Shown: positions 984 through 22,959 of the stretch, in pieces
How the letters are laid out: each line of letters opens with the position of its first letter
How positions within the stretch are numbered: position 1 is the stretch's first letter
NCBI RefSeq assembly: GCF_024355225.1
Contig: NZ_VCNH01000008.1
Span: forward strand, 806,001-870,000
Reading direction: 5' to 3'
Origin: Roseovarius sp. M141
Lineage (GTDB): Bacteria; Pseudomonadota; Alphaproteobacteria; Rhodobacterales; Rhodobacteraceae
DNA length: 64,000 nt
Translations under genes and position numbers: made by a program
Notes under the pieces: generated by a model
The model's database searches: none
Told to the model about the DNA's origin: nothing
Seen by the model: only the letters and a program-made list of their open reading frames with translations

Positions 984-3900
984 ATGACACAGTATGATGA
1001 TGCATGGGCCGCCGCCGAAGCAGCCAAGCGCGACTGGATGGCCGACAACGGCATGTATGCCCACGCGGAGGAACATTCCTCCTGCGGGGTCGGCCTTGTC
1101 GTCGCGGTCAATGGCAAACGCTCGCGCCGGGTGGTGCAGGCGGGCATCGACGCGCTCAAGGCGATCTGGCATCGCGGCGCGGTAGATGCCGATGGCAAGA
1201 CCGGCGATGGCGCCGGCATCCATGTGCAGATCCCGGTCAGCTTTATCTACGACCAGATCCGCCGCACCGGCCACGAGCCGCGTCAGGATCAGCTGGTCGC
1301 GGTCGGTCAGGTGTTCCTGCCGCGCACCGATTTCGGCGCCCAAGAGGCCTGCCGCACGATTGTCGAAACCGAAGTGCTGCGCATGGGCCACACGATCTAT
1401 GGCTGGCGGCATGTGCCGGTGAACGTCTCCTGCCTGGGGGAAAAGGCGAACGCGACCCGCCCCGAGATCGAGCAGATCCTGATCTCGAACGCCAAAGGCA
1501 TCGACGAGGAGGATTTCGAGCGCGAACTGTACGTGATTCGCCGTCGCATCGAAAAGGCGGTGATCGCCGCCGGAATCAATCATTTCTACATCGCGTCGCT
1601 GTCGTGCCGCAGCATCATCTACAAGGGCATGATGCTGGCCGAGGAGGTCGCGGTATTCTACCCTGACCTGATGGACGAGCGGTTCAAATCCGCCTTTGCC
1701 ATCTATCACCAGCGCTATTCGACCAACACGTTCCCGCAATGGTGGCTGGCGCAGCCCTTCCGCATGCTGGCCCATAACGGTGAGGTCAACACGCTCAAGG
1801 GCAACGTCAACTGGATGAAAAGCCACGAGATTCGCATGGCTTCCTCGGCTTTTGGCGATCTGGCCGAGGATATCAAACCCATCGTGCCGGCCGGGGCGTC
1901 CGATAGCGCCGCGCTGGATTCGGTGTTCGAGGTGCTGGTGCGCGCGGGCCGCTCTGCCCCGATGGCGAAAACCATGCTGATACCGGAATCATGGTCCAAT
2001 CAGGCGCAGGAATTGCCGCAGGCGTGGTGCGATATGTATTCCTATTGCAACTCCGTGATGGAGCCGTGGGACGGCCCCGCCGCACTGGCCATGACCGATG
2101 GCCGCTGGGTTTGCGCCGGGCTTGACCGCAATGGACTGCGCCCGATGCGCTATGTGGTGACCGGCGACGGTCTGGTGATCGCCGGAAGCGAGGCCGGAAT
2201 GGTCCCGATCGACGAGGCGACCGTGCGCGAAAAAGGCGCGCTGGGGCCGGGCCAGATGCTGGCTGTCGATATGCAGGACGGCAAGCTGTACCACGACGTC
2301 GAGATCAAGGACCGTCTGGCCGCCGCGCGCCCGTTCGGCGAATGGGTCGGCAAGATCAAGGAACTGGATGACACGTTGACCGTGGTCAGCGAGGCGCCGA
2401 TGTACACCGCGGGCGATCTGCGCCGCCGCCAGATCGCGGCAGGCTACACGATCGAGGAACTGGAGCAGATCCTTGCCCCCATGGGCGAGGACGGCAAAGA
2501 GGCCATCGCGTCGATGGGTGACGACACGCCCAGTGCCGTGCTGTCGAACCAGTACCGCCCGCTTAGCCATTTTTTCCGGCAGAATTTCTCGCAGGTGACA
2601 AACCCGCCTATCGACAGCCTGCGCGAATACCGGGTGATGAGCCTGAAGACACGTTTCGGCAATCTCAAGAACGTGCTGGACGAGAGCGGCGCGCAGACCC
2701 AGATCATCGTGCTGGACAGCCCGTTTGTGGGCAATAGCGAGTGGGACGTGCTGATGCAGCAGTTCAGCTCGGACGTGGGGCATATCGACTGCACCTTTAC
2801 CCCCGGCCCGAATGCGCTGCAAAATAGCCTGACGCGTATCCGCGCCGAGGCCGAGGATGCGGTGCGCAGCGGCGCGGGCCATCTGGTGCTGAGCGATCAG
2901 GCGGTGGGCGAGGGGCGTATCGGGATGCCGATGATCCTGGCCACCTCTGCCGTGCACAGCCACCTGACGCGCAAGGGCCTGCGCACCTTCTGTTCGCTCA
3001 ACGTGCGCTCTGCCGAGTGCATTGATCCGCATTATTTCGCCGTGCTGATCGGCGCGGGCGCGACCATCGTCAACGCCTATCTGGCGCAGGATTCACTGGC
3101 CGACCGGATCGACCGGAACCTGCTGGACGGCAGCCTGACCGAGGTGGTCGCGCGCTATCGCAAGGCCATCGATTCGGGCCTGCTGAAGATCATGTCCAAG
3201 ATGGGGATCTCCGTCATCTCGTCCTATCGCGGCGGTCTGAATTTCGAGGCCATCGGGCTGTCGCGCGCGATGTGCGCCGAATATTTCCCCGGCCTTGTCA
3301 GCCGCATCAGCGGCATCGGCGTCAGCGGCATCCAGACCAAGCTGGAGGAGGTCCACGCCCGGGCGTTCAGCACGCCCGACAATGTCCTGCCGATCGGCGG
3401 GTTCTACAAATCGCGCAAGACGGGCGAGACCCACGCATGGGGCGCCCAGAACATGCACATGCTGCAAACGGCGTGCAATACCGCCAGTTTCGATCTGTGG
3501 AAACGCTATTCGGCGGCCATGCAATCGGCCCCGCCGATCCACCTGCGCGATCTGATGGCGATCAAGCCGATGGGCAAGGCGATCTCGCTGGACGAGGTGG
3601 AGTCCGTCACTGCGATCCGCAAGCGGTTCGTCACCCCTGGCATGTCACTGGGCGCGCTGTCCCCCGAGGCGCACAAGACCCTCAATGTGGCGATGAACCG
3701 TATCGGCGCGCGCAGCGATTCAGGTGAGGGCGGCGAAGATCCGGCGCATTTCACGCCCGAGCCGAACGGTGACAACCCCTCGGCCAAGATCAAGCAGGTT
3801 GCATCAGGCCGCTTCGGTGTCACCGCCGAATACCTCAACCAATGCGAAGAGCTGGAGATCAAGGTCGCCCAAGGCGCCAAGCCCGGCGAGGGCGGCCAGC

Positions 3901-5513
3901 TGCCCGGCATGAAGGTGACCGAGCTGATCGCGCGCCTGCGCCTGTCGACGCCGGGCGTGACGCTGATCTCGCCCCCGCCGCATCACGATATCTACAGCAT
4001 CGAGGATCTTGCGCAGCTGATCTATGACCTCAAGCAGATCAACCCCCATGCCAAGGTCACGGTGAAACTGGTCGCCCAATCGGGCGTCGGCACCATCGCC
4101 GCCGGCGTGGCCAAGGCCAAGGCCGACGTCATCCTGATTTCGGGTCATAACGGCGGCACCGGCGCCAGCCCGGCAACGTCGATCAAATACGCGGGGCTGC
4201 CGTGGGAAATGGGCCTGACCGAAGCGCATCAGGTGCTGTCGATGAACAACCTGCGCGACCGCGTGACGCTGCGCACCGATGGCGGGCTGCGCACCGGGCG
4301 CGATATCGTCATGGCCGCGATGATGGGGGCCGAGGAATACGGCATCGGCACAGCCGCCCTGATCGCCATGGGCTGCATCATGGTGCGTCAGTGCCAGTCC
4401 AACACTTGTCCCGTGGGGGTTTGCACGCAGGACCATGCGCTGCGCGCCAAGTTCACCGGCAACGCCGAAAAAGTCGTGAACCTCATCACCTTCTACGCCC
4501 AGGAGGTCCGCGAAGTGCTGGCCGGTATCGGCGCACGCAGCCTGGATGAGGTGATTGGCCGCGCGGATCTGTTGACGCAGGTCAGCCGGGGCAGCGCGCA
4601 TCTGGACGATCTGGACCTGAACCCCATGTTGATCACGGTCGCCAGCCAAAGCGCCCCGCTGAACCGCACGCGCGACCGCAACGCCGTGCCCGATACGCTG
4701 GACGCTGAAATCGTGCGCGACGCCGCCCGCTTCCTGAATGACGGTGAAAAGATGCAGCTGCACTATGCCGTGCAGAACACGCATCGCACGGTGGGCACGC
4801 GGCTGAGTAGCCATATCGTGCGCAAATTCGGGATGCGCAACAATCTGCAACCCGATCACCTGACGGTCAAACTGTCGGGCAGCGCGGGCCAAAGCCTTGG
4901 CGCGTTTGCCGCGCCGGGACTGAAGCTGGAAGTGTCGGGCGATGCGAACGATTATGTCGGCAAGGGCCTGTCGGGCGGCATCATCGTGGTGCGCCCGCCG
5001 ATGTCCAGTCCGCTGGACGCCAGTCGGAACACGATCATCGGCAACACGGTGCTGTATGGTGCGACCGCTGGCCACCTCTTTGCCGCCGGGCGCGCGGGCG
5101 AGCGGTTTGCCGTGCGCAATTCGGGCGCGCATGTGGTGATCGAGGGCTGCGGCAGCAACGGGTGCGAATATATGACTGGCGGCACTGCCGTTATTCTGGG
5201 CCGCATCGGCGCCAATTTCGGTGCGGGAATGACGGGGGGCATGGCGTATCTCTATGACCCCGAAGGGCAGACCGACCCCCTGATGAACCGCGAAACCATC
5301 GTCACCGGCCCCGTTCAGCATCCCCATTGGGAGGCGCAGTTGCAGGACCTGATCCAGCGCCACGCGGATGAGACGGGCAGCCTCAAGGCGCTGGATATCT
5401 TGCGACACTGGGACGTCGAAAAAGTGCATTTCCTGCAAGTTTGCCCGCGTGAAATGCTGGACAAGCTGCCCCATCCGCTGAGCGACGCGCAGATGGCCGT
5501 GCCTGCCGAATAA
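984..5513 (+). CDS. gltB: Glutamate synthase large subunit
   Basis: Converts glutamine plus 2-oxoglutarate to two glutamates, the second half of the GS-GOGAT ammonia assimilation cycle. At 1509 residues it has the usual family length. Cys34 (HSSCGVG) is the expected N-terminal nucleophile of the glutaminase domain after removal of a short propeptide. The FMN/synthase domain holds SGEGGEDPAHF and the 3Fe-4S cysteines in CIMVRQCQSNTCPVGVC. The C-terminal GXGXG beta-helix is seen in GHLFAAGRAGERFAVRNSG. The ATG at 984 is preceded by an AGGGG-type ribosome site. Downstream is a hairpin shared with the convergent operon. Confidence 0.98.
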   Translation: MTQYDDAWAAAEAAKRDWMADNGMYAHAEEHSSCGVGLVVAVNGKRSRRVVQAGIDALKAIWHRGAVDADGKTGDGAGIHVQIPVSFIYDQIRRTGHEPRQDQLVAVGQVFLPRTDFGAQEACRTIVETEVLRMGHTIYGWRHVPVNVSCLGEKANATRPEIEQILISNAKGIDEEDFERELYVIRRRIEKAVIAAGINHFYIASLSCRSIIYKGMMLAEEVAVFYPDLMDERFKSAFAIYHQRYSTNTFPQWWLAQPFRMLAHNGEVNTLKGNVNWMKSHEIRMASSAFGDLAEDIKPIVPAGASDSAALDSVFEVLVRAGRSAPMAKTMLIPESWSNQAQELPQAWCDMYSYCNSVMEPWDGPAALAMTDGRWVCAGLDRNGLRPMRYVVTGDGLVIAGSEAGMVPIDEATVREKGALGPGQMLAVDMQDGKLYHDVEIKDRLAAARPFGEWVGKIKELDDTLTVVSEAPMYTAGDLRRRQIAAGYTIEELEQILAPMGEDGKEAIASMGDDTPSAVLSNQYRPLSHFFRQNFSQVTNPPIDSLREYRVMSLKTRFGNLKNVLDESGAQTQIIVLDSPFVGNSEWDVLMQQFSSDVGHIDCTFTPGPNALQNSLTRIRAEAEDAVRSGAGHLVLSDQAVGEGRIGMPMILATSAVHSHLTRKGLRTFCSLNVRSAECIDPHYFAVLIGAGATIVNAYLAQDSLADRIDRNLLDGSLTEVVARYRKAIDSGLLKIMSKMGISVISSYRGGLNFEAIGLSRAMCAEYFPGLVSRISGIGVSGIQTKLEEVHARAFSTPDNVLPIGGFYKSRKTGETHAWGAQNMHMLQTACNTASFDLWKRYSAAMQSAPPIHLRDLMAIKPMGKAISLDEVESVTAIRKRFVTPGMSLGALSPEAHKTLNVAMNRIGARSDSGEGGEDPAHFTPEPNGDNPSAKIKQVASGRFGVTAEYLNQCEELEIKVAQGAKPGEGGQLPGMKVTELIARLRLSTPGVTLISPPPHHDIYSIEDLAQLIYDLKQINPHAKVTVKLVAQSGVGTIAAGVAKAKADVILISGHNGGTGASPATSIKYAGLPWEMGLTEAHQVLSMNNLRDRVTLRTDGGLRTGRDIVMAAMMGAEEYGIGTAALIAMGCIMVRQCQSNTCPVGVCTQDHALRAKFTGNAEKVVNLITFYAQEVREVLAGIGARSLDEVIGRADLLTQVSRGSAHLDDLDLNPMLITVASQSAPLNRTRDRNAVPDTLDAEIVRDAARFLNDGEKMQLHYAVQNTHRTVGTRLSSHIVRKFGMRNNLQPDHLTVKLSGSAGQSLGAFAAPGLKLEVSGDANDYVGKGLSGGIIVVRPPMSSPLDASRNTIIGNTVLYGATAGHLFAAGRAGERFAVRNSGAHVVIEGCGSNGCEYMTGGTAVILGRIGANFGAGMTGGMAYLYDPEGQTDPLMNRETIVTGPVQHPHWEAQLQDLIQRHADETGSLKALDILRHWDVEKVHFLQVCPREMLDKLPHPLSDAQMAVPAE

Positions 5514-5589: not shown

Positions 5590-5702
5590 AAAGCGTTTCG
5601 CCTTAAACTTGAGACACTCACTTGAGGCGAAACGCGCGCAACGCCAACATGTTGCGCTGCGTTTCGCGAAGAGCTGTGAGTCAGGTTTTTCGCGAAACGC
5701 TT
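5590..5702. repeat. Dispersed palindromic repeat B, tandem copies
   Basis: Two inverted repeats built on GCGTTTCGC. The first has arms GCGTTTCGCCT (5593-5603) and AGGCGAAACGC (5625-5635). The second has GCGTTTCGCG (5659-5668) and CGCGAAACGC (5691-5700). They fill the gap up to the alcohol dehydrogenase stop codon. Related sequence occurs at 14585, 22557 and 61745. Confidence 0.7.
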
Positions 5703-6847
5703 TAGATGCTGGCCTCGTAAAGCGCGCGCAGGTTTGCCTCGGTCAGCTTGACGGGATTGCCGCCGCAACTGGGATCCTTGATCGCCTCGTTCACCAGATC
5801 GTCGATGCGGGCGGCGTCCACGCCCATATCGCTCAGCTTGCGGGGGATGCCGAGCGCGTCGTTGAATTCCTGAACGAAGCTGCAAAAGCCGTCAAAGCCG
5901 CCTTCGATATCCAAGTATGCGGCCGCTGTGCGAAAGCGGTCCTTGATCTGGGGCGCGTTCAGTTTCAGCACGGCGGGCATGCAGACGGCGTTGGTGGTGC
6001 CGTGATGCGTGCCAAAGACCGCGCCGACTGGGTGGCTCATCGCGTGGATCGCGCCAAGGCCCTTCTGGAATGCGGTCGCGCCCATCATCGCGGCGCTCAT
6101 CATGTGCGCGCGCGCCTCAAGGTCGTTGCCATTGGCATAGGCGCGGGGCAGGTAATCCTTGACCAGACGCATCCCTTCCAGCGCCATGCCCTGGCTCATC
6201 GGGTGGTAATGCGGGCTGCTGAACGCCTCGACGCAATGGGCAAAGGCATCGAGGCCGGTGCCGGCGGTGATGAATTTCGGCATGCCTGCGGTCAGTTCGG
6301 GATCGCAGATCACGACCGTCGGCAGCACTTTGGGGTGGAAGATGATCTTCTTCACATGCGTTTCGGAATTGGTGATGACGCTGGCGCGCCCCACTTCCGA
6401 GCCTGTTCCGGCGGTTGTCGGCACCGCGATGATCGGCGCGATGGCGTCCGCATCGGCGCGCGTCCACCAGTCGTCCACGTCCTCATAGTCCCAGACGGGG
6501 CGCGTCTGGTCGACCATGAAGGCGACCATCTTGCCCAGATCCAGACCCGAGCCGCCGCCAAAGGCGATCACGCCGTCATGGCCACCCGATTTGTAGGCGG
6601 CGACGCCAGCATCAAGGTTCTTTTCGTTCGGGTTGGGATCAACCTCCGAGAAGATGCCCCGCCCCAGCCCTGCGCCTTCCATGATGTCCAGCACCTGCGC
6701 GGTAATCGGCAGATCGGCCAGCCCCTTGTCTGTGACCAGCAGGGGGCGTTTCATTCCAGCCTGCGCGCAGGCGGCGGGCAGTTCGGCAATGCGGCCAGCG
6801 CCGAATTTCACGGAGGTCGGGTAGGACCAGTTTCCAATGAGGTTCAT
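5702..6847 (-). CDS. Iron-containing alcohol dehydrogenase
   Basis: Group III (Fe-dependent) alcohol dehydrogenase of 381 residues, the normal length. It should oxidise an alcohol to an aldehyde with NAD(P). Nucleotide-binding GGGSGLDLGK, the TTAGTGSEV segment, and metal ligands in HCVEAFSSPHYHP, HAMSHPVGA and THHGTTNAV are all visible. The start overlaps the stop of the upstream aldehyde dehydrogenase by four bases (ATGA), so the two are translationally coupled. It is the last gene of the seven-gene unit that begins at 13576. The substrate cannot be read from sequence. The context suggests an amino alcohol or its gamma-glutamyl derivative. Confidence 0.93.
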   Translation of the reverse strand: MNLIGNWSYPTSVKFGAGRIAELPAACAQAGMKRPLLVTDKGLADLPITAQVLDIMEGAGLGRGIFSEVDPNPNEKNLDAGVAAYKSGGHDGVIAFGGGSGLDLGKMVAFMVDQTRPVWDYEDVDDWWTRADADAIAPIIAVPTTAGTGSEVGRASVITNSETHVKKIIFHPKVLPTVVICDPELTAGMPKFITAGTGLDAFAHCVEAFSSPHYHPMSQGMALEGMRLVKDYLPRAYANGNDLEARAHMMSAAMMGATAFQKGLGAIHAMSHPVGAVFGTHHGTTNAVCMPAVLKLNAPQIKDRFRTAAAYLDIEGGFDGFCSFVQEFNDALGIPRKLSDMGVDAARIDDLVNEAIKDPSCGGNPVKLTEANLRALYEASI

Positions 6848-8226
6848 TTTGTCACCTTCTTGAGATGGTAGGATTTGGGGCGCGTCAGATTGTGATAGCC
6901 GATGACCGACAGTCCGCCGCCGCTACCTGTATCCTTGCAGCCTGTCCAGCATAGACCGGGGTCCAGATAATCGGCCCGGTTCATGAAAACGGTGCCGGTT
7001 TCGATCCGGTCGCCAACGGCCTGCGCACGGTCCAGATCGGCGGTCCAGAGGCTGGCGGTCAGGCCAAAATTGCTGTCGTTCATCAGCTCGATCGCCTCGT
7101 CATCCGACGCCACCTTCATGATGCCGACCACGGGGCCGAAGCTTTCGTCGCGCATGACGCGCATGTCATGGGTCACGTCGGTCAGGATTTGCGGCGTCAG
7201 GTAGGCGCCGCCGTCATCTGCCGCCATCGGCGCGATATGCGCCGTCGCGCCTGCCTGCACGGCCTCGTCGATCTGGGCGCGTACTTCCTTGGCAAAGCGA
7301 ACATGCGCCATCGGGCCGATGCTGGTGGCGGGGTCCAGCGGATTGCCCAGGGTATAGCCCTGTACGATCTTCACGGCCTTTTCGACGAAAGCGTCATACA
7401 GGCTCTCATGCACATAGATCCGCTCGATCCCGCAGCAGCACTGGCCCGAGTTGAACATCGCCCCGTCGATCAGCGTATCGACGGCGGCATCCAGATCGGC
7501 GTCCTCCATGACATAGCCGGGATCCTTGCCGCCCAGTTCGGTCGCTACCGATGTGAATGTGCCGGCTGCCGCCTGCTCCATCGCGCGCCCGCCACCGACC
7601 GAGCCGGTGAAGTTCACGAAATCCACCGCGCGATCCGCGATCAGCCGTGATGTTGTGTCATGACCTAGGAACACGTTCTGAAACACATCCTCTGGCACGC
7701 CCGCGCCGTGAAACGCCTGCGCCATCCGCTCGCCCACCAGCAGCGTCTGGGTGGCGTGCTTGAGCAGCACGGTATTGCCGGCGATCAGCGCCGGCGCGAC
7801 CGTGTTGATTGCCGTCATGTAAGGATAGTTCCACGGCGCCACGACCAGAACCACGCCATGCGGCAGGCGCTTGATATACCGCGTGAAGGTCGCGTCTTCG
7901 CCCACCTCGATATCGGCCAGCGCATCCGCCGCGATCTTCGCCATATGCGACGCCCGCTCGTCAAAGCCGCCGAATTCGCCACCATAGCGCACGGGGCGTC
8001 CCATCATATGGGCCAGTTCCGGCACGACCTCGTCGTTCATCGCGCCCACGGCGGCGACGCCTGCCATCACCAAACGGATACGGTCATCCAGTGGGCGCGC
8101 GGCCCAGTTGACTTGGGCAGCCCGCGCCCGATCAGCGGCAGCGCGCGCGGCGTCGGCATCCAGCGCCGCGCGCGTGGCGAAAACCGATCCGTCGATCGGT
8201 GAAATGCAGGTAAGTGTCTCGCTCAT
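6844..8226 (-). CDS. NAD(P)-dependent aldehyde dehydrogenase
   Basis: Oxidises an aldehyde to the acid. The ALDH fold is clear: APWNYPY (catalytic Asn), NFTGSVGGG (nucleotide binding), ELGGKDPGYV (general-base Glu) and FNSGQCCCGIERIYV (nucleophilic Cys). About 460 residues, slightly shorter than the 480-500 common in the family. I chose the ATG at 8226; a TTG two codons upstream is possible. It pairs with the downstream alcohol dehydrogenase, which would supply its substrate, and follows the glutamine-synthetase-like gene after about 100 bases. PuuC-like enzymes, which act on gamma-glutamyl aldehydes, are the functional analogy, but substrate choice is inference. Confidence 0.93.
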   Translation of the reverse strand: MSETLTCISPIDGSVFATRAALDADAARAAADRARAAQVNWAARPLDDRIRLVMAGVAAVGAMNDEVVPELAHMMGRPVRYGGEFGGFDERASHMAKIAADALADIEVGEDATFTRYIKRLPHGVVLVVAPWNYPYMTAINTVAPALIAGNTVLLKHATQTLLVGERMAQAFHGAGVPEDVFQNVFLGHDTTSRLIADRAVDFVNFTGSVGGGRAMEQAAAGTFTSVATELGGKDPGYVMEDADLDAAVDTLIDGAMFNSGQCCCGIERIYVHESLYDAFVEKAVKIVQGYTLGNPLDPATSIGPMAHVRFAKEVRAQIDEAVQAGATAHIAPMAADDGGAYLTPQILTDVTHDMRVMRDESFGPVVGIMKVASDDEAIELMNDSNFGLTASLWTADLDRAQAVGDRIETGTVFMNRADYLDPGLCWTGCKDTGSGGGLSVIGYHNLTRPKSYHLKKVTK

Positions 8227-8261
8227 TGGCAAACCTATCTAGTTTTTAGCAGGGCCAGTCA

Positions 8262-8294
8262 TTCTTCTTGCCCAAAATATCCCCGCCGGAGGCT
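8262..8294 (+). repeat. Dispersed intergenic repeat C, copy 1
   Basis: TTCTTCTTGCCCAAAATATC followed by CCCGCCGGAGGC. A near-identical stretch lies at 25287-25319. Here it sits inside an operon, between the aldehyde dehydrogenase and glutamine-synthetase-like genes. Confidence 0.6.
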
Positions 8295-8327
8295 CCGGCG
8301 ATCTCAGCCAGCGCAAACGTCAGCGGC

Positions 8328-9698
8328 TTAGCACCGCTCAAAGCCACGCGCGATTTCGTAGTCGGTGACGACGGCCTCGAAATCTTCGATTTCGATCTCG
8401 GCGGCGCGGGCGTAGTGATCGATAACGTCATCGCCCAGCGCAGCACGCAGCATGTCCGACCCCTTGAGCGACGCGTAGGCGCCTTGCAGGTTGGTCGGTA
8501 TCATGCCCTCGTCGCCGGAATACGCATCTCCCTTGAACGGCGGCGCCAGTTCCAGCCCCTCCTCGATGCCCGCAATCCCGGCGGCCAGTTGCACGGCCAT
8601 GGCAAGGTAGGGGTTGATGTCCGACCCGCCGACGCGGCATTCCACGCGCACCGCCTTGGTGCCGTCACCGCAGAGGCGAAAACCGGCGGTGCGGTTGTCC
8701 ACGGACCAGATCGTGCGTGTGGGCGCGAACGTACCCTTTTGGAACCGCTTGTAGCTGTTGATATAGGGCGCGAGGAAATAGGTGTAATCGGGTGCGTATT
8801 TCAGCATCCCGGCCATGTAGTTCTTCATCAGCGCGGACATGCCCAGATCGTCGCTCTTGTCAAAGAACACGTTCTCACCATCTTTCCACAGCGATTGATG
8901 CACATGGGACGAGCTGCCGACGCGGTCCTTGTGCCATTTCGGGAGGAAGGAGGCGGCATGGCCCTGTTGCCATGCAATCTCTTTCACCGCGTGCTTGGCA
9001 ATCGTGTGGTAATCTGCCGTGTCGAGCGCGGCGGCATATTTGATGTTCAGCTCTTCTTGGCCCACCTCGGCCTCGCCCTTGGTGCATTCGATGGGCAGCC
9101 CGGCGTTCCACAGGTGGTTGCGCAAGGGGCGCATCACATGTTCTTCCTTGGTGGTCTGGAAGATGTTGTAATCCTCGTTAAAGCCCGAAATCGGGGCGAG
9201 GTCGCGGTAGCCACCCTTGCGGATCTCATCAAAGCTTTTCTCGAACAGGAAAAACTCCAGTTCGGTCGCCATCATGGCGGTGAAACCCATCGTCTCCAGC
9301 CGCGCCAGTTGCTTTTTCAGCATCGCACGCGGCGAATGGGGGACGGGTTCGTGGGTGCGGTGATCCAGCACGTCGCACAGCACCATGACGGTGCCCTCCA
9401 GCCACGGCATCGGGCGCAGCGTGTCCAGATCAGGCGCCATGATGTAATCGCCATAGCCCGTTTCCCAGCTGGTGCTGGCATAGCCGTCAGGCGTGGACAT
9501 TTCCAGATCTGTGGCCAGCAGATAATTACAGCAATGCGTTTCCTTGTAGGCGCCATTGATGAAATGCTGCGCGTGGAACCGCTTGCCCATCAGGCGCCCC
9601 TGCATGTCCACAAAGCAGACCAGTACGGTGTCGGTGGTGCCGTCCTTCACCTGTTTTTTCAGCGCGTCGAATGTCAGGGCGGGGGTCTGTGCAGACAT
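8328..9698 (-). CDS. Glutamine synthetase family ligase (gamma-glutamyl amine ligase type)
   Basis: ATP-dependent ligase of the glutamine synthetase superfamily, 456 residues. Metal and substrate motifs are intact: ATELEFFLF, GEAEVGQEELN, SSSHVHQSLW, NRTAGFRL and VECRVGGSDINPYLAMA. The protein is closer in layout to PuuA/GlnT-type enzymes, which join glutamate to an organic amine, than to housekeeping GlnA, and I do not see the GlnA adenylylation tyrosine region. The ATG at 9698 has a GAGG ribosome site six bases upstream; a TTG at 9710 is the alternative. Its place among an amine-type transporter, an alcohol dehydrogenase, an aldehyde dehydrogenase and an amidohydrolase argues for a catabolic gamma-glutamylation step rather than ammonia assimilation. 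Confidence 0.88.
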   Translation of the reverse strand: MSAQTPALTFDALKKQVKDGTTDTVLVCFVDMQGRLMGKRFHAQHFINGAYKETHCCNYLLATDLEMSTPDGYASTSWETGYGDYIMAPDLDTLRPMPWLEGTVMVLCDVLDHRTHEPVPHSPRAMLKKQLARLETMGFTAMMATELEFFLFEKSFDEIRKGGYRDLAPISGFNEDYNIFQTTKEEHVMRPLRNHLWNAGLPIECTKGEAEVGQEELNIKYAAALDTADYHTIAKHAVKEIAWQQGHAASFLPKWHKDRVGSSSHVHQSLWKDGENVFFDKSDDLGMSALMKNYMAGMLKYAPDYTYFLAPYINSYKRFQKGTFAPTRTIWSVDNRTAGFRLCGDGTKAVRVECRVGGSDINPYLAMAVQLAAGIAGIEEGLELAPPFKGDAYSGDEGMIPTNLQGAYASLKGSDMLRAALGDDVIDHYARAAEIEIEDFEAVVTDYEIARGFERC

Positions 9699-9740
9699 GG
9701 GGAACCTCAAAGTAGCGGTTGGTGAATTCAGGGGGGGGCC

Positions 9741-9763
9741 AGCCCCGGCAGGATGCCGGGGCT
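9741..9763 (-). other. Perfect RNA hairpin between dctP and the ligase gene
   Basis: AGCCCCGGCA (9741-9750), three-base loop, TGCCGGGGCT (9754-9763). No U tract follows on either strand. Such GC-rich hairpins often protect the 3' end of the highly expressed binding-protein mRNA inside transporter operons. Confidence 0.6.
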
Positions 9764-9781
9764 ACCAGTTGCCACAAGCGA

Positions 9782-10822
9782 TCAGTCGAAGGAGTAGGGC
9801 ACGCCCGCCTTGCCGATCACATCGTTATAGTCGCGGAAGATCTGCACGACCTGCTGGTGAACCTCGCCTTCCTGAGCGATCTCGTCCCAGAATATGACGG
9901 CAGCGTCTTCGACGGTTTTCCACTCTTTTTGCGGGATCGAGCGCAGCTTCAGCTTGTCGCCCTGCGCACGCAGACGCGCCTCGCCGCCCCAATACCACTG
10001 GTTGCGGTAGGTGTGGCTGGCCTCGATTCCGGCCATGACGATCTGCTTCAGATGCTCGGGCAGGTCCGCCCACTGTTTGGGATTGACGAAGAACGATCCG
10101 ATCCACGCGCCCGAGATGTTGTTGGTCAGGAAATAATCGGTGACGTTCGCCCAGCCGACCGTGTAATCCTCGGTGATGCCCGACCATGCCATGCCGTCCA
10201 GCTCGCCGGTTTGCACGGCGACCTCGGCATCCTCGTAGGGGATGCTGACCGGTACGACGCCGAACTGCGACAGGAACCGCCCGGCGGTGGGGAAGGTGTA
10301 CAGCTTGAGACCGTCCAGATCCGCCAGCGACGTGATCTCGCGGGTGGTGTTGAAGTTGCAGGGGTCCTGACCCGCGGCCGACAACCATTTGACGCCGACC
10401 TTGTCGTATTCGGCTGTCCAGATATCGGCCAGCCCGTACTGGTTGAACAGGACGGGCACGTCCAGAATATGCTTGGTCGCCAGCGGGAAATATCCGCCGA
10501 ACTGTTGCAGCGGCGTTGGCGAGGCCATCGAATCGTCGTCCGAATGGACGCCGTCGATGGTGCCGCGCTGAAGGGCCTGAAACATCTCGCCGGTGGGCAC
10601 GATCTGATCGGCGTAGAACAGTTCGATCTCCATCTCGCCATTGGCGGCGGCGTTGATGTAGTCGATGGCGGGTTTCGTCACATGTTCGCCCAGTGCGGCG
10701 CCGGCATAGGTCTGAAACCGCCATTTGATCGGCGCTTGCGCACGAACGATGGACGGTGCGCCCAGCGCGGTGGCCGCCGTACCGATACCGGCGGAGGCCA
10801 GAAACTTTCTGCGTGTCGTCAT
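9782..10822 (-). CDS. dctP: TRAP transporter periplasmic solute-binding protein
   Basis: Binds the transported solute in the periplasm and delivers it to the DctQM membrane unit. 346 residues. The N-terminus has a twin-arginine export signal (TRRKFLASAG followed by a hydrophobic stretch and an Ala-Gln-Ala cleavage region), so the protein is probably exported folded. The TRAP signature is present: FQALQRGTIDG, the conserved arginine in TAGRFLSQFG, and WSGITEDYTVGW. This subgroup, with TAT signal and paired DctQ of about 200 residues, is often annotated for mannitol, keto-acid or other organic solutes, so family membership does not fix the ligand. It lies 60 bases after dctM in the same operon. 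Confidence 0.93.
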   Translation of the reverse strand: MTTRRKFLASAGIGTAATALGAPSIVRAQAPIKWRFQTYAGAALGEHVTKPAIDYINAAANGEMEIELFYADQIVPTGEMFQALQRGTIDGVHSDDDSMASPTPLQQFGGYFPLATKHILDVPVLFNQYGLADIWTAEYDKVGVKWLSAAGQDPCNFNTTREITSLADLDGLKLYTFPTAGRFLSQFGVVPVSIPYEDAEVAVQTGELDGMAWSGITEDYTVGWANVTDYFLTNNISGAWIGSFFVNPKQWADLPEHLKQIVMAGIEASHTYRNQWYWGGEARLRAQGDKLKLRSIPQKEWKTVEDAAVIFWDEIAQEGEVHQQVVQIFRDYNDVIGKAGVPYSFD

Positions 10823-10882
10823 CTTTTCTCTCCTTGTTGGTTCACGTTGGCTCGAATGCTCCTTGGCGGAGTTCTTATGTTG

Positions 10883-12202
10883 TCAGTTATACACCAGATT
10901 CGGCAGCCACAGGGCGATCTGCGGGAAGGCCATGACAGCCGCGAGCGCGACGACCATCACCGCCACGAACGGAATGATCGACCGATAGATATCGCGGATC
11001 GAGATTTCGGGCGGCGCCATCGCGCGCATCAGGAACAGGTTATAGCCGAAGGGCGGCGTCATATAGGCGATCTGGCAGGTGATCGTATAGAGCACGCCGT
11101 ACCAGATCAGATCAAACCCCAGCTCGCCCACGAGCGGAACGTAGAGCGGCGCGACGATGACCAGCATGGCCGTATCGTCCAGAAACGTGCCCATCACGAT
11201 AAAGCTGAGCTGCATCAGGATCAGGATGATCCACGGGTCCAGCCCCCATTGCGCGGTGAACAGATCCGAAATCGCCTTGACCGCGCCCAGCCCGTCAAAG
11301 ATCGCGCCAAAGCCAAGTGCGGCGAGGATGATCCACATGAACATGCACGAGATGCCCAGCGTGTTGCGCACCGAATTCTCGAAAACCTCGCGCGTCATCC
11401 GCCCCTTGAGGACGGCGGCGAGGAAGGCCGCCATCGCGCCGATCGCACTGCTTTCCACCAGCGAGGTCCAGCCCTTGACGAAGGGCACCATCATCACCGC
11501 AAAGATGACCAGCGGCAGGATGCCCGCCGATAGCAGGCGCAGCTTTTCGCGGGTGCCGACATTGCGTTCCTCGACCGGCAGGGGCGGGCCCAGATCGGGC
11601 TGCATCCGGCAGCGCACATAGATGTAGATGATGAACATCGTCGCCATCATCAGGCCGGGAATGACCCCCGCCAGCCACAATTGCCCGACCGGCTGACGTG
11701 CGATCATCGCATACAGCACCAGCACCACCGAGGGCGGCACGAGAATGCCCAGGGATGACCCCGCCTGAATGACCCCCGTCACCATGATCTTGTCATAGCC
11801 GCGCTTCAGCAGTTCGGGCAGCGCGATGGTCGCGCCGATGGCCATGCCGGCGACCGACAGGCCGTTCATGGCCGAAATCAGCACCATCAACAGGATCGTG
11901 CCAATCGCCAGACCGCCGCGCACAGGCCCCATCCAGACGTGGAACATGCGGTAGAGATCATCGGCAATGCGGCTCTCGCTCAGCACATAGCCCATGAAAA
12001 TGAACATCGGCAGCGTCAGCAGCGGATACCACTTCATCAGCTTCATCGCGGCGGAAAACGGCATATCCGCCCCGCCCGTGCCCCACAGCAGCATGCCACC
12101 AGCGGCGGCCACAAAGCCGATGGCGCCGAACACCCGCTGACCCGTCAGCAGCATCAGCATCATCGAGCTGAACATCAGGATCGCAATCATCTCGTATGGC
12201 AT
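10883..12202 (-). CDS. dctM: TRAP transporter large permease subunit
   Basis: Large membrane component that performs ion-driven solute uptake. 439 residues with about twelve hydrophobic segments spread over the whole length. Family landmarks include SLGILVPPSVVLVLYAMI and the C-terminal MTPPFGYNLFLM. The start codon overlaps the dctQ stop by one base (TGATG), a coupling arrangement expected for subunits of one complex. Confidence 0.95.
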   Translation of the reverse strand: MPYEMIAILMFSSMMLMLLTGQRVFGAIGFVAAAGGMLLWGTGGADMPFSAAMKLMKWYPLLTLPMFIFMGYVLSESRIADDLYRMFHVWMGPVRGGLAIGTILLMVLISAMNGLSVAGMAIGATIALPELLKRGYDKIMVTGVIQAGSSLGILVPPSVVLVLYAMIARQPVGQLWLAGVIPGLMMATMFIIYIYVRCRMQPDLGPPLPVEERNVGTREKLRLLSAGILPLVIFAVMMVPFVKGWTSLVESSAIGAMAAFLAAVLKGRMTREVFENSVRNTLGISCMFMWIILAALGFGAIFDGLGAVKAISDLFTAQWGLDPWIILILMQLSFIVMGTFLDDTAMLVIVAPLYVPLVGELGFDLIWYGVLYTITCQIAYMTPPFGYNLFLMRAMAPPEISIRDIYRSIIPFVAVMVVALAAVMAFPQIALWLPNLVYN

Positions 12203-12798
12203 CAGATTTCTTCCCCGCGAATGCGGCCAATATCGCGAAAAAATTCAGCGGTGACTTGCAGCAGCATCAGCGTGACGCCGATGATCATTATGGTCTTGAC
12301 CGGCCAGATATAGGGCCGCCACGCGGTCGGGCTGCGCTCCATGAAACCCATCTGCTCCTTGGCCGCTGACGGGCCTTCGGTGAGGAGCGTCTTGAACAGA
12401 TCCCAGAAAAAGCTGAACGGTTCGCCGGTGAAATGCCCCAGCGAATAGGCGGTTGACCCGATGGCGCCGTAGAGCAGTACGCCGAGGTAGAACATCAGGA
12501 ACAGCACGGTAATGGCGTCCATCCACGCCTTTTGCCGCACGGTCCAGTTGCCGTAGAACAGATCCATCCGCACGTTCGACCCCATCTGAATCGCATAGGG
12601 CCCGCCCAGAACGTAAAAGGCGACCATGACGAACTGCGCCATTTCCAGCGTCCACAGCGTCGGCTCGAAAAACGTCTTGGACACGGACGACCACATCAGC
12701 ACGCCGATCAGCGCAAAGATCAGATACATCGCGATGCGGCCGATGAAATAATTCATCGCATCGACGCCGCGCACGAAACCCCGGATGACCTTAGGCAT
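12202..12798 (-). CDS. dctQ: TRAP transporter small permease subunit
   Basis: Small membrane subunit that joins DctM and receives the binding protein. 198 residues, four predicted membrane segments: about 15-37, 50-72, 94-120 and 160-182. The stretch between the third and fourth segments, with GHFTGEPFSFFWDLFKTLL, is typical of the larger DctQ type. It begins inside the end of the upstream amidohydrolase gene (8-base overlap), and its stop overlaps the dctM start, so the amidohydrolase and transporter are made from one message. Confidence 0.92.
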   Translation of the reverse strand: MPKVIRGFVRGVDAMNYFIGRIAMYLIFALIGVLMWSSVSKTFFEPTLWTLEMAQFVMVAFYVLGGPYAIQMGSNVRMDLFYGNWTVRQKAWMDAITVLFLMFYLGVLLYGAIGSTAYSLGHFTGEPFSFFWDLFKTLLTEGPSAAKEQMGFMERSPTAWRPYIWPVKTIMIIGVTLMLLQVTAEFFRDIGRIRGEEI

Positions 12799-13576
12799 GT
12801 CTGGCTCCTTGCGTTTGAAGGCCCAGATGGATCAGCGCGGGGGCGATCATCGCGCACAGCTCGTCGCCCATCCGGGCGACATCCTCGGGCGTTTTCAGCA
12901 GATCGTTGCGCACTTCGATCATCACATTCGCCAGGCCATGCGCCATTCCGTGAATTCGCAGCGAATGGGTGACGCCGTCCTCGGGACCATAGGGCTGGTT
13001 GCGGTGAATCGTGCGGTGCGCCACCTTTGCCGCGCTGTGCAATATGGCATCGGCCAGCGCGGTGTCGGTATCGTGCAGCACGCCGATTTCAGTCTCGCGC
13101 GTTTCGCCATAGTAAACCGGGGTAAAGCTGTGAACCGTAATGATTGCCGTGGGCTGCGAGCGATGCTGCCGCGCGGCGATGGCGCCTGCCACGGCAGCGC
13201 AGAACGGGCGATACACCGTTTCGGTCCGCTCGGCGCGCTGGGCATCTGTCAGGTTGGCATTGCCGGGCACGTCGATCAGTTCGGATTTTTCCGGCATGGC
13301 CGATGCGGCCTCTGGCGGGCGGTTGCAGTCGTAAACCAGCCGCGAAACCGTGGCGGCAATCAGCGTGCCATCGAGGTAACCGGCCAGATACTGCGCCAGA
13401 TCGCGCGCGCCGGGATCCCATGCCGCATGGCTCGTCGCCGCCTCGGGCGTCAAGCCCAGCCCGCCGTAGCGCGCGGGAATATCATGCGCGGCATGTTCGC
13501 ACAGGATCAGCGCCGCGCCGGTGGCATCGGCGCCGATAATTTCGACTACTGCGTTTTCCTGCGGCTCGCCTGACAT
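12791..13576 (-). CDS. N-formylglutamate amidohydrolase family protein
   Basis: Zinc-dependent amide hydrolase of the FGase family, 261 residues. Seen are ILCEHAAHDIPARYGGLGL near residue 25, HAAWDPGARDLA, VYDCNRPP, TVHSFTPVY and VMIEVRNDL near the end. Classical FGases hydrolyse N-formylglutamate in histidine degradation, but no hut gene is nearby. As first gene of a transporter-ligase-dehydrogenase operon it more likely cleaves the gamma-glutamyl or N-acyl product of that pathway. This assignment is inference. A distinct paralogue lies at 23116. The ATG at 13576 faces the divergent RpiR regulator. Confidence 0.88.
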   Translation of the reverse strand: MSGEPQENAVVEIIGADATGAALILCEHAAHDIPARYGGLGLTPEAATSHAAWDPGARDLAQYLAGYLDGTLIAATVSRLVYDCNRPPEAASAMPEKSELIDVPGNANLTDAQRAERTETVYRPFCAAVAGAIAARQHRSQPTAIITVHSFTPVYYGETRETEIGVLHDTDTALADAILHSAAKVAHRTIHRNQPYGPEDGVTHSLRIHGMAHGLANVMIEVRNDLLKTPEDVARMGDELCAMIAPALIHLGLQTQGARHA

Positions 13577-13662
13577 GACGCCCCCTCGTTGCTTGGAAAA
13601 ATCTTTCCACGCCGCAGAAATTCTGTCAATATCTTTCCAGACCTTTTCGGAGAAACCTTGCG
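13577..13662. promoter_or_regulatory. Divergent control region with repeated ATCTTTCCA boxes
   Basis: The 86 bases between the amidohydrolase and RpiR genes hold an inverted repeat TGGAAA-AATC-TTTCCA (13594-13609). A second ATCTTTCCA lies exactly 30 bases further (13631-13639). The spacing places both boxes on nearly the same face of the helix, as for a dimer-of-dimers regulator. RpiR is the obvious candidate to bind here. Confidence 0.55.
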
Positions 13663-14553
13663 ATGAGCCAGACTTCCCGACCTACAGGCCATGCCACAGG
13701 CCAAACGGTGCGCGAGGCGATCCGCACGCATTATGCCGCGTTGACCCAGTCCGAACGCAAATTCGCGCAGGCGCTGCTGGATAATTACCCGGCGGCGGGT
13801 CTTGCCTCGATCACCATCGCCGCGGCCAATGCGCAGGTTTCGACGCCGACACTGGCGCGGCTGGTGCAAAAGCTGGGGTTCAAGGGCTATCCACAGTTCC
13901 AGCAGGCCCTGCTGGCCGAGCTTGAGGCCAAGGCCTCCGGCCCCACCCAGCGCCGCGACCAATGGGCCAGCGAGGTGCCGGAATCGCACCTGCTGAACCG
14001 CTTTGCCACGGCGGTGGGCGACAACATCCAGCAGACGCTGGCCAATCTGGACAGCGCGCAGTTCGACAGCGCGACGCGGCTGCTGGCCGATACCGACAGG
14101 CGGCTTTATGTCGTCGGCGGGCGGATCAGTCGCGCGCTGGCCGACTATGCCTTTACCCATTTTCAGGCGATGCGCAGGCGCATCACGCATATGACTTCCA
14201 GCTCGGCCACATGGCCGCATTACGTGCTGGACATGACCGAGGGCGACGTGCTGCTGCTGTTCGACATGCGCCGGTACGAGACGAACCTGCTGCGCCTTGC
14301 CCAGCTGGCGACCGAGCGCGGCGTTGCCGTGATCCTGATCACCGATCAATGGGCCAGCCCGGCCGCCGCCCATGCCGCGCACACGTTTCATTGCTGGACG
14401 CAGATCCCGTCGGCATGGGACAGCAACACCTCGACCATGATGCTGCTGGAGGCGCTGATTGCCGCCACTCAAGAGGCGAACTGGCCCGAAACGCGCGAAC
14501 GCTATGAGCGGCTGGACAGTATCTTCGACGCCGCGCGCCTGTTCGAGAAGTGA
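13663..14553 (+). CDS. RpiR family transcriptional regulator (HTH plus SIS domain)
   Basis: Likely controls the divergent transporter/catabolic operon. 296 residues: an N-terminal RpiR helix-turn-helix (about 15-85, with LASITIAAANAQVSTPTLAR as the recognition part) and a C-terminal SIS domain (about 115-260, with LYVVGGRISRALADYAF) that senses a ligand, usually a phosphosugar or pathway intermediate. The start ATG lies 24 bases after the second ATCTTTCCA box. RpiR proteins in this bacterial group often sit beside amine or amino-acid catabolic operons. Whether it represses or activates cannot be read. Confidence 0.9.
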   Translation: MSQTSRPTGHATGQTVREAIRTHYAALTQSERKFAQALLDNYPAAGLASITIAAANAQVSTPTLARLVQKLGFKGYPQFQQALLAELEAKASGPTQRRDQWASEVPESHLLNRFATAVGDNIQQTLANLDSAQFDSATRLLADTDRRLYVVGGRISRALADYAFTHFQAMRRRITHMTSSSATWPHYVLDMTEGDVLLLFDMRRYETNLLRLAQLATERGVAVILITDQWASPAAAHAAHTFHCWTQIPSAWDSNTSTMMLLEALIAATQEANWPETRERYERLDSIFDAARLFEK

Positions 14554-22884: not shown

Positions 22885-22959
22885 TGGTGGGCGATACAAG
22901 GTTCGAACTTGTGACCCCTTCGATGTCAACGAAGTGCTCTACCACTGAGCTAATCGCCC
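22885..22959 (-). tRNA. tRNA-Val (anticodon GAC)
   Basis: 75 bases including encoded CCA. The acceptor stem GGGCGAT pairs fully with ATCGCCC. The D arm has GCTCAGTGGTAGAGC. The anticodon arm is CTTCG-TTGACAT-CGAAG with GAC anticodon, and the T arm contains GTTCGAACC. Transcribed towards rpmJ. Confidence 0.97.

Follow-up and report, generated by a model that had tools for sequence, protein, structure and literature searches.

A predicted ethanolamine uptake and catabolism operon in Roseovarius sp. M141 and a possible second operon type for intact phospholipid headgroups

Gene content and layout of the operon

The stretch of DNA analysed here, referred to throughout as the window, is 64,000 nucleotides of the genome of Roseovarius sp. 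M141 (4.5 Mb, 9 contigs; the window is G000:C8:806001-870000). It contains seven minus-strand genes, the first starting at 13576 and the last ending at 5702, which are faced by a divergent gene for an RpiR-family regulator at 13663-14553, as established from open reading frames and a Pfam check (Table 1). The seven encode an FGase-family amidohydrolase, the three parts of a tripartite ATP-independent periplasmic (TRAP) transporter (DctQ, DctM and DctP), a glutamine-synthetase-like ligase, an aldehyde dehydrogenase (ALDH) and an iron-dependent alcohol dehydrogenase (Fe-ADH). An earlier note on this DNA had named the same families and the facing regulator, and position, strand and Pfam family agree for all of them. 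Taken from the listed starts the intergenic gaps are -8, -1, 60, 71, 95 and -4 bases; the gap between ALDH and ligase becomes 101 if ALDH begins at the ATG (8226) that lies six bases inside its TTG, and with that start the spacing also agrees with the earlier figures.

Table 1. Predicted genes and candidate operator of the operon, with the basis for each assignment
Feature	Positions	Strand	Basis
Fe-dependent alcohol dehydrogenase, predicted gamma-glutamylethanolamide dehydrogenase (GETADH)	5702..6847	-	Fe-ADH 167 bits and ADH_Fe_C 148 bits (Pfam); position as in published operon
Aldehyde dehydrogenase, predicted gamma-glutamylacetaldehyde-amide dehydrogenase (GAADDH)	6844..8232, alternative ATG 8226	-	Aldedh 389 bits; position as in published operon
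Glutamine-synthetase-like ligase, predicted ethanolamine gamma-glutamylase (ETAGA)	8328..9710, alternative ATG 9698	-	Gln-synt_C 317 bits; best PDB match 5dm3
TRAP solute-binding protein, predicted ethanolamine-binding EtoX, second sub-type	9782..10822	-	DctP 83 bits; best PDB match 4uab/4xf5
TRAP large permease, EtoW	10883..12202	-	DctM 226 bits
TRAP small permease, EtoV	12202..12798	-	DctQ 54 bits
FGase-family amidohydrolase, predicted gamma-glutamylglycine amidohydrolase (GGAH)	12791..13576	-	FGase 133 bits; position as in published operon
Candidate RpiR operator, inverted repeat TGGAAA-N4-TTTCCA	13594..13609	.	enrichment in RpiR/FGase gaps of relatives
RpiR-family regulator, divergent	13663..14553	+	HTH_6 55 bits and SIS 85 bits; RpiR in published operon

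Conservation of the arrangement

With a paralogue of the ligase from a second locus as the query, we examined the best 80 of at least 584 related loci, most of them with Rhodobacterales names (Ruegeria, Leisingera, Roseovarius, Aliiroseovarius and others) and a few from Granulosicoccaceae, Halomonas or alphaproteobacterial metagenome-assembled genomes. The search for the seven genes plus RpiR, which the earlier note had suggested, returned the complete order of divergent RpiR, FGase, DctQ, DctM, DctP, ligase, ALDH and Fe-ADH in 56 of the 80, with a sodium/phosphate (Na/Pi) transporter gene before the ligase in five, and since so many related loci share the order it cannot be put down to chance. 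The remaining 24 loci have an incomplete order, some of them through contig ends. When L098 and L102 are added to the 80, contig ends included, best matches at an identity of at least 35% are found in these 82 loci for the ligase (80), ALDH (75), FGase (72), Fe-ADH (71), DctP (68), DctM (66), RpiR (66) and DctQ (65), so that the co-occurrence of the ligase with both dehydrogenases, on which the earlier note had staked its pathway, is indeed seen.

Within the order a close ligase gene is present in 139 of 196 genomes (142 matches, E<=1e-150) and a close DctP in 124 of 196 (125 matches, E<=1e-80). Of the 142 ligase genes, 112 have DctP on the same strand at a distance of up to 3 kb and 30 do not, and 13 of the 125 DctP matches have no such ligase inside 3 kb.

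Ethanolamine as the predicted substrate

Westermann et al. (2023, PMC10132767) have published an eto operon, MED193_10021-10056, from Phaeobacter sp. MED193, and its gene content and order are those of the window operon: RpiR, gamma-glutamylglycine amidohydrolase, EtoV, EtoW, EtoX, ethanolamine gamma-glutamylase, gamma-glutamylacetylaldehydeamide dehydrogenase and gamma-glutamylethanolamide dehydrogenase. MED193 EtoX binds ethanolamine with a dissociation constant of 7.9 uM, and five of the proteins (the hydrolase, EtoX, the glutamylase and both dehydrogenases) were increased on phosphorylethanolamine in proteomics (Table 2 of PMC10132767), which also cites Vetting et al. for a demonstrated ethanolamine pathway encoded by related genes of Chromohalobacter salexigens and Agrobacterium tumefaciens. 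Judging by another Phaeobacter locus, L057, the MED193 amidohydrolase probably belongs to the FGase family and its last enzyme is probably an Fe-ADH. The window operon is thus very probably the marine alphaproteobacterial eto operon, which serves uptake and breakdown of ethanolamine.

Ethanolamine, a membrane-lipid headgroup, would be imported by DctP/DctQ/DctM and coupled by the ligase, with ATP, to the gamma-carboxyl of glutamate; Fe-ADH and then ALDH would turn the terminal hydroxyl into an aldehyde and an acid, yielding gamma-glutamylglycine, which the FGase-family hydrolase would cleave to glycine and glutamate, the latter being recycled. We infer each of these enzyme steps for Roseovarius sp. 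M141. Gamma-glutamyl protection of an amine likewise precedes oxidation in the Puu (putrescine) and isopropylamine (Ipu) pathways, although their transporter and hydrolase differ from those of the window. The same reactions, with an FGase-family gamma-glutamylglycine hydrolase among the enzymes, have been proposed for the GlnA4 pathway of Streptomyces coelicolor, but with a short-chain dehydrogenase, another transporter and another regulator (PMC6529630). TRAP import, glutamylation, alcohol and aldehyde oxidation and FGase-type release of glutamate, as put forward in the earlier note, therefore match both the pathway in PMC10132767 and the proposal in PMC6529630. Its further claim, that an FGase-type hydrolase with a TRAP importer makes the assembly unusual, does not hold: the chemistry was right and the novelty was not, because the same genes in the same order were already published, and with 112 of the 142 ligase genes so placed the operon is known and ordinary for its group. 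A cobalamin (B12)-dependent Eut route in this genome was rejected, as EutB (PF06751) gave no match in it, E. coli being positive amongst 14 control genomes.

The closest solved relative of the window DctP is Csal_0678 (4uab, 4xf5) at 478 bits, the next solved protein scoring 66 bits, and structural alignment gives 60% identity over 269 aligned residues. In the solved structure 4UAB, Glu220 holds the bound ethanolamine (PMC12410723). Residues 28-345 of the window DctP align with 4UAB in sequence without gaps, and the difference in numbering is therefore constant; the structural alignment runs from 31/33 to 343/347, which bounds the offset between +2 and +4, and because only +2 places a Glu at 220 it is Glu218 of the window protein that corresponds to Glu220. 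Glu218 is invariant in all 23 DctPs aligned, as are most of its surroundings (212-225, a segment that varies little). The window protein is accordingly, like the binding protein of an eto operon, a homologue of EtoX and Csal_0678 that has the ethanolamine-binding Glu. Its Tyr175 is aligned opposite an Arg of 4yzz that is probably the carboxylate-binding Arg of TRAP proteins. Csal_0678 is without the TRAP Arg and this absence has been tied to its unusual ligand (PMC4646407); ethanolamine is also listed among TRAP ligands (PMC5812351).

The ligase points the same way, its closest solved relative being 5dm3, which is Csal_0679, at 802 bits (names of the ligase matches 5dm3, 11zs, 9qur and 7cql are taken from PDB titles). 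Csal_0678 and Csal_0679, both from C. salexigens (Enzyme Function Initiative), are hence the nearest solved relatives of the window DctP and ligase, and together with Glu218 they lend good support to the amino alcohol that the earlier note had proposed as substrate, most likely ethanolamine. C. salexigens, unlike Roseovarius, is a gammaproteobacterium.

FDGSS and G(Y/F)EAP are motifs of the glutamine synthetase GlnA. The window ligase lacks the FDGSS and GFEAP of the GlnA-like protein of this genome (L005): where L005 has MFDGSS it shows other sequence or a gap, and where L005 has VPGFEAP it has QKGTFAP. With both motifs missing and 241.6 bits against a TIGR00653 cut-off of 429.15, a type I glutamine synthetase was rejected. 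That a plain amine or polyamine is gamma-glutamylated here, in the manner of the Puu, isopropylamine or methylamine routes, is a very remote prospect. The ligase does belong to a broad glutamine-synthetase-like family and scores 196.3 bits on the gamma-glutamylputrescine synthetase (PuuA type) model NF045547 and 228 bits on that for type III glutamine synthetase, but the cut-offs are far higher at 650 and 469.6, the GmaS structures 9qur and 7cql reach 133 and 116 bits where Csal_0679 reaches 802, and a plain amine needs no alcohol dehydrogenase; PuuA- and GmaS-type ligases were rejected on these scores and on the motifs. From its sequence the window ligase is predicted to form gamma-glutamylethanolamide and not glutamine.

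D200, H204, H268, H272 and H282 of Fe-ADH are invariant with at most one exception in 71 rows, and so, in 73 rows, are C265-C267 and E232 of ALDH. None of the 16 NCBIfam matches of Fe-ADH reaches its cut-off, nor does any among the ALDH matches listed, and for this reason no NCBIfam name was adopted for either. The one PDB sequence matched by the FGase protein at E<=0.001 is 2odf, at 257 bits.

A number of points weigh against this reading. A second entry of Csal_0678, 4xf5, holds another amino alcohol, so that DctP may accept a wider range of amino alcohols. Both Csal_0678 and the Phaeobacter locus L057 carry the residues of a different DctP sub-type (W, F, W; see below), and that the sub-type of the window shares the ligand of EtoX is a prediction. 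The structure model of DctP is middling (predicted local distance difference test, pLDDT, 64.7; predicted template modelling score, pTM, 0.67) and that of the ligase is poor (pLDDT 49.5, pTM 0.48) and was not used. In the parts of PMC10132767 consulted, enzyme assays for the MED193 eto enzymes were not found.

Two sub-types of the binding protein

The 125 DctP matches in the order fall into two groups, 31 with at least 78% identity to the window protein and 94 with 53-67%, and the window DctP is a member of the second sub-type of ethanolamine-type DctP. In the 23-row alignment eight rows of the window sub-type have Q152, Y175 and Y196 whilst the remaining 15 show W, F and W at these positions. 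The window protein thus differs from Csal_0678, to which it is ~60% identical, and apparently from the Phaeobacter protein also, a comparison made through L057 (64% identical) and not through MED193 itself. Glu220 is the one residue of the 4UAB ethanolamine site that is mapped onto the window DctP, and positions 152, 175 and 196, where the sub-types differ, may or may not be part of that site. These sub-types were not met in the literature consulted on the operon, in which no search was aimed at them.

On a tree of DctM from 66 rows, 13 of window type, the sub-type label changes five times, at least two of these changes being forced by well-supported branches, whereas it changes once on the tree of DctP itself; the DctM tree was made by a quick method and 15 of its 62 inner branches are well supported. 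Loci L012, L018 and L066 are near the window in other genes and have gltB alongside, yet possess the other type of DctP. This suggests that the binding-protein gene may have been swapped now and then inside an otherwise stable operon. Such exchange is at most occasional, because rows with the same label tend to group together on the DctM tree (five changes, where shuffling gave a mean of 12 and none of 500 shuffles was as low).

It could be supposed from the aromatic substitutions at the three positions, and from a sub-type whose distribution matches the DctM tree only partly, as if a cassette were swapped occasionally, that the window sub-type serves the same pathway but is tuned to another amino alcohol, such as L-alaninol, serinol or 3-aminopropanol, with another amino acid, for example alanine, as end product. 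We consider this improbable, since Glu218 and most of its surroundings do not vary, the identities of ligase, ADH and ALDH have no matching split, the clustering of the label leaves little room for exchange, and swaps of DctP between similar operons would favour a common substrate.

A possible second operon type

The ligase has a paralogue (78% identical) elsewhere in the same genome, at C8:44658-46010. In transcription order its region (G000:C8:38000-64000; L008, L009) holds a Pot-like ATP-binding cassette (ABC) transporter, a PehA-like sulfatase/phosphoester hydrolase, a DeoR remnant, a phosphatase like inositol monophosphatase (IMPase) or HisN, an Na/Pi transporter, an FGase (57% to that of the window), an IS256 transposase, the ligase and an ALDH (83%) that stops at residue 391 of the 462 in the window ALDH. 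No match to Fe-ADH, the TRAP genes or RpiR was found in L008, L009 or L010. With IS256 between FGase and ligase, a shortened ALDH and no Fe-ADH in the searched stretches this copy looks broken; complete versions apparently occur in other Rhodobacterales. An Na/Pi transporter gene is also present in TRAP-type operons, between DctP and ligase, in L025, L034, L048, L060 and L064 (all Ruegeria), with 50-53% identity to that of L008.

DctP is present in 66 of the 80 loci, whilst eight have the phosphatase and/or the Na/Pi gene without DctP (L014, L017, L023, L033, L047, L054, L061 and L080) and six have neither beside the ligase (L026, L036, L067, L068, L077 and L083, some being short contigs; L083 has a phosphatase match at 31% some ~8 kb off). 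Amongst the eight, Na/Pi is found in L014, L017, L023 and L061, the PehA-like gene in L014, L023, L047 and L061, and an FGase match in all except L023. The ABC transporter beside the enzymes varies: L014 and L023 have a Pot-like one, L017 and L047 an Opp-like one and L080 one of the SBP_bac_6 type. In a survey centred on the phosphatase, 43 of 390 genomes had the gene (45 matches), and among the 20 regions fetched of these 45 six have adjoining ethanolamine enzymes: L133 and L134, which end at a contig end, L138, which is without an FGase match, L140, L142, which is the same record as L061, and L145. The set of PehA, Na/Pi and ABC genes occurs without ethanolamine enzymes in the 16 kb fetched of L091, L093 and L096.

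We read this, from gene neighbourhood, as a general cassette for import and hydrolysis of organophosphates that has repeatedly been joined to ethanolamine enzymes, and that joining points to phosphoethanolamine or glycerophosphoethanolamine as the substrate. The second operon type may thus import the whole headgroup ester through ABC transporters of different families, hydrolyse it in the cytoplasm by the PehA-like and/or the inositol-monophosphatase-family enzyme, be regulated by a DeoR/GlpR-like protein, dispose of surplus phosphate through the Na/Pi transporter and turn ethanolamine into glycine, which would amount to a Pho-independent headgroup route. We offer this tentatively, as a proposal with slightly less for it than against. 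The N-termini of both hydrolases are without a signal peptide by eye, consistent with a cytoplasmic site.

Several findings stand against such an operon type. The ethanolamine enzymes are missing from 14 of the 20 phosphatase regions, and one of the six that carry them duplicates L061. An Na/Pi gene lies within 12 kb of just seven of the 142 ligase genes, and of these DctP is lacking only at that of the present genome. The NCBIfam scores fall short as well, at 570 and 451 against a cut-off of 900 for the PehA-like proteins and 239 and 238 against 275 for the HisN-like ones.

A Pho-independent route for headgroups was left open by Westermann et al. (PMC10132767), and no paper on the second operon type was found by titles and abstract starts in the open-access literature, subscription journals being outside that coverage. 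If true, it supplies candidate genes for the uptake of intact phospholipid headgroups and matters more than the finding in the window.

The regulator and neighbouring features

The gap between FGase and RpiR holds a perfect TGGAAA-N4-TTTCCA. In a pattern derived from the window, itself one of the 67 RpiR/FGase gaps compared, TGGAAA-N3..5-TTTCCA with at most one mismatch occurs in 22 gaps, 0.2 being expected from a two-base block shuffle, and with two mismatches in 11 (2.3 expected); the other 34 gaps have at least three mismatches, including those of the near relatives L012 and L018. RpiR presumably senses a pathway intermediate and would act at this inverted repeat of the divergent promoter region.

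Just beyond the operon end lies gltB, the gene for the large subunit of glutamate synthase (984-5513). A functional link with the operon was rejected, as the fetched stretch has a gltB match in only three of the 80 loci (L012, L018 and L066), and gltB is treated as neighbourhood. The sole RNA gene of the window by ARAGORN and Rfam at gathering scores is a tRNA at 22885-22959, none lying inside the operon.

Finally, a further cluster of FGase, divergent RpiR and glutamine-synthetase-like genes, with ABC ATPase genes adjoining, is found at G000:C8:2999400-3002600 (L157:6408-9549); its three proteins are 38%, 37% and 26% identical to those of the window respectively, and it possibly encodes another gamma-glutamylation pathway for some amine.

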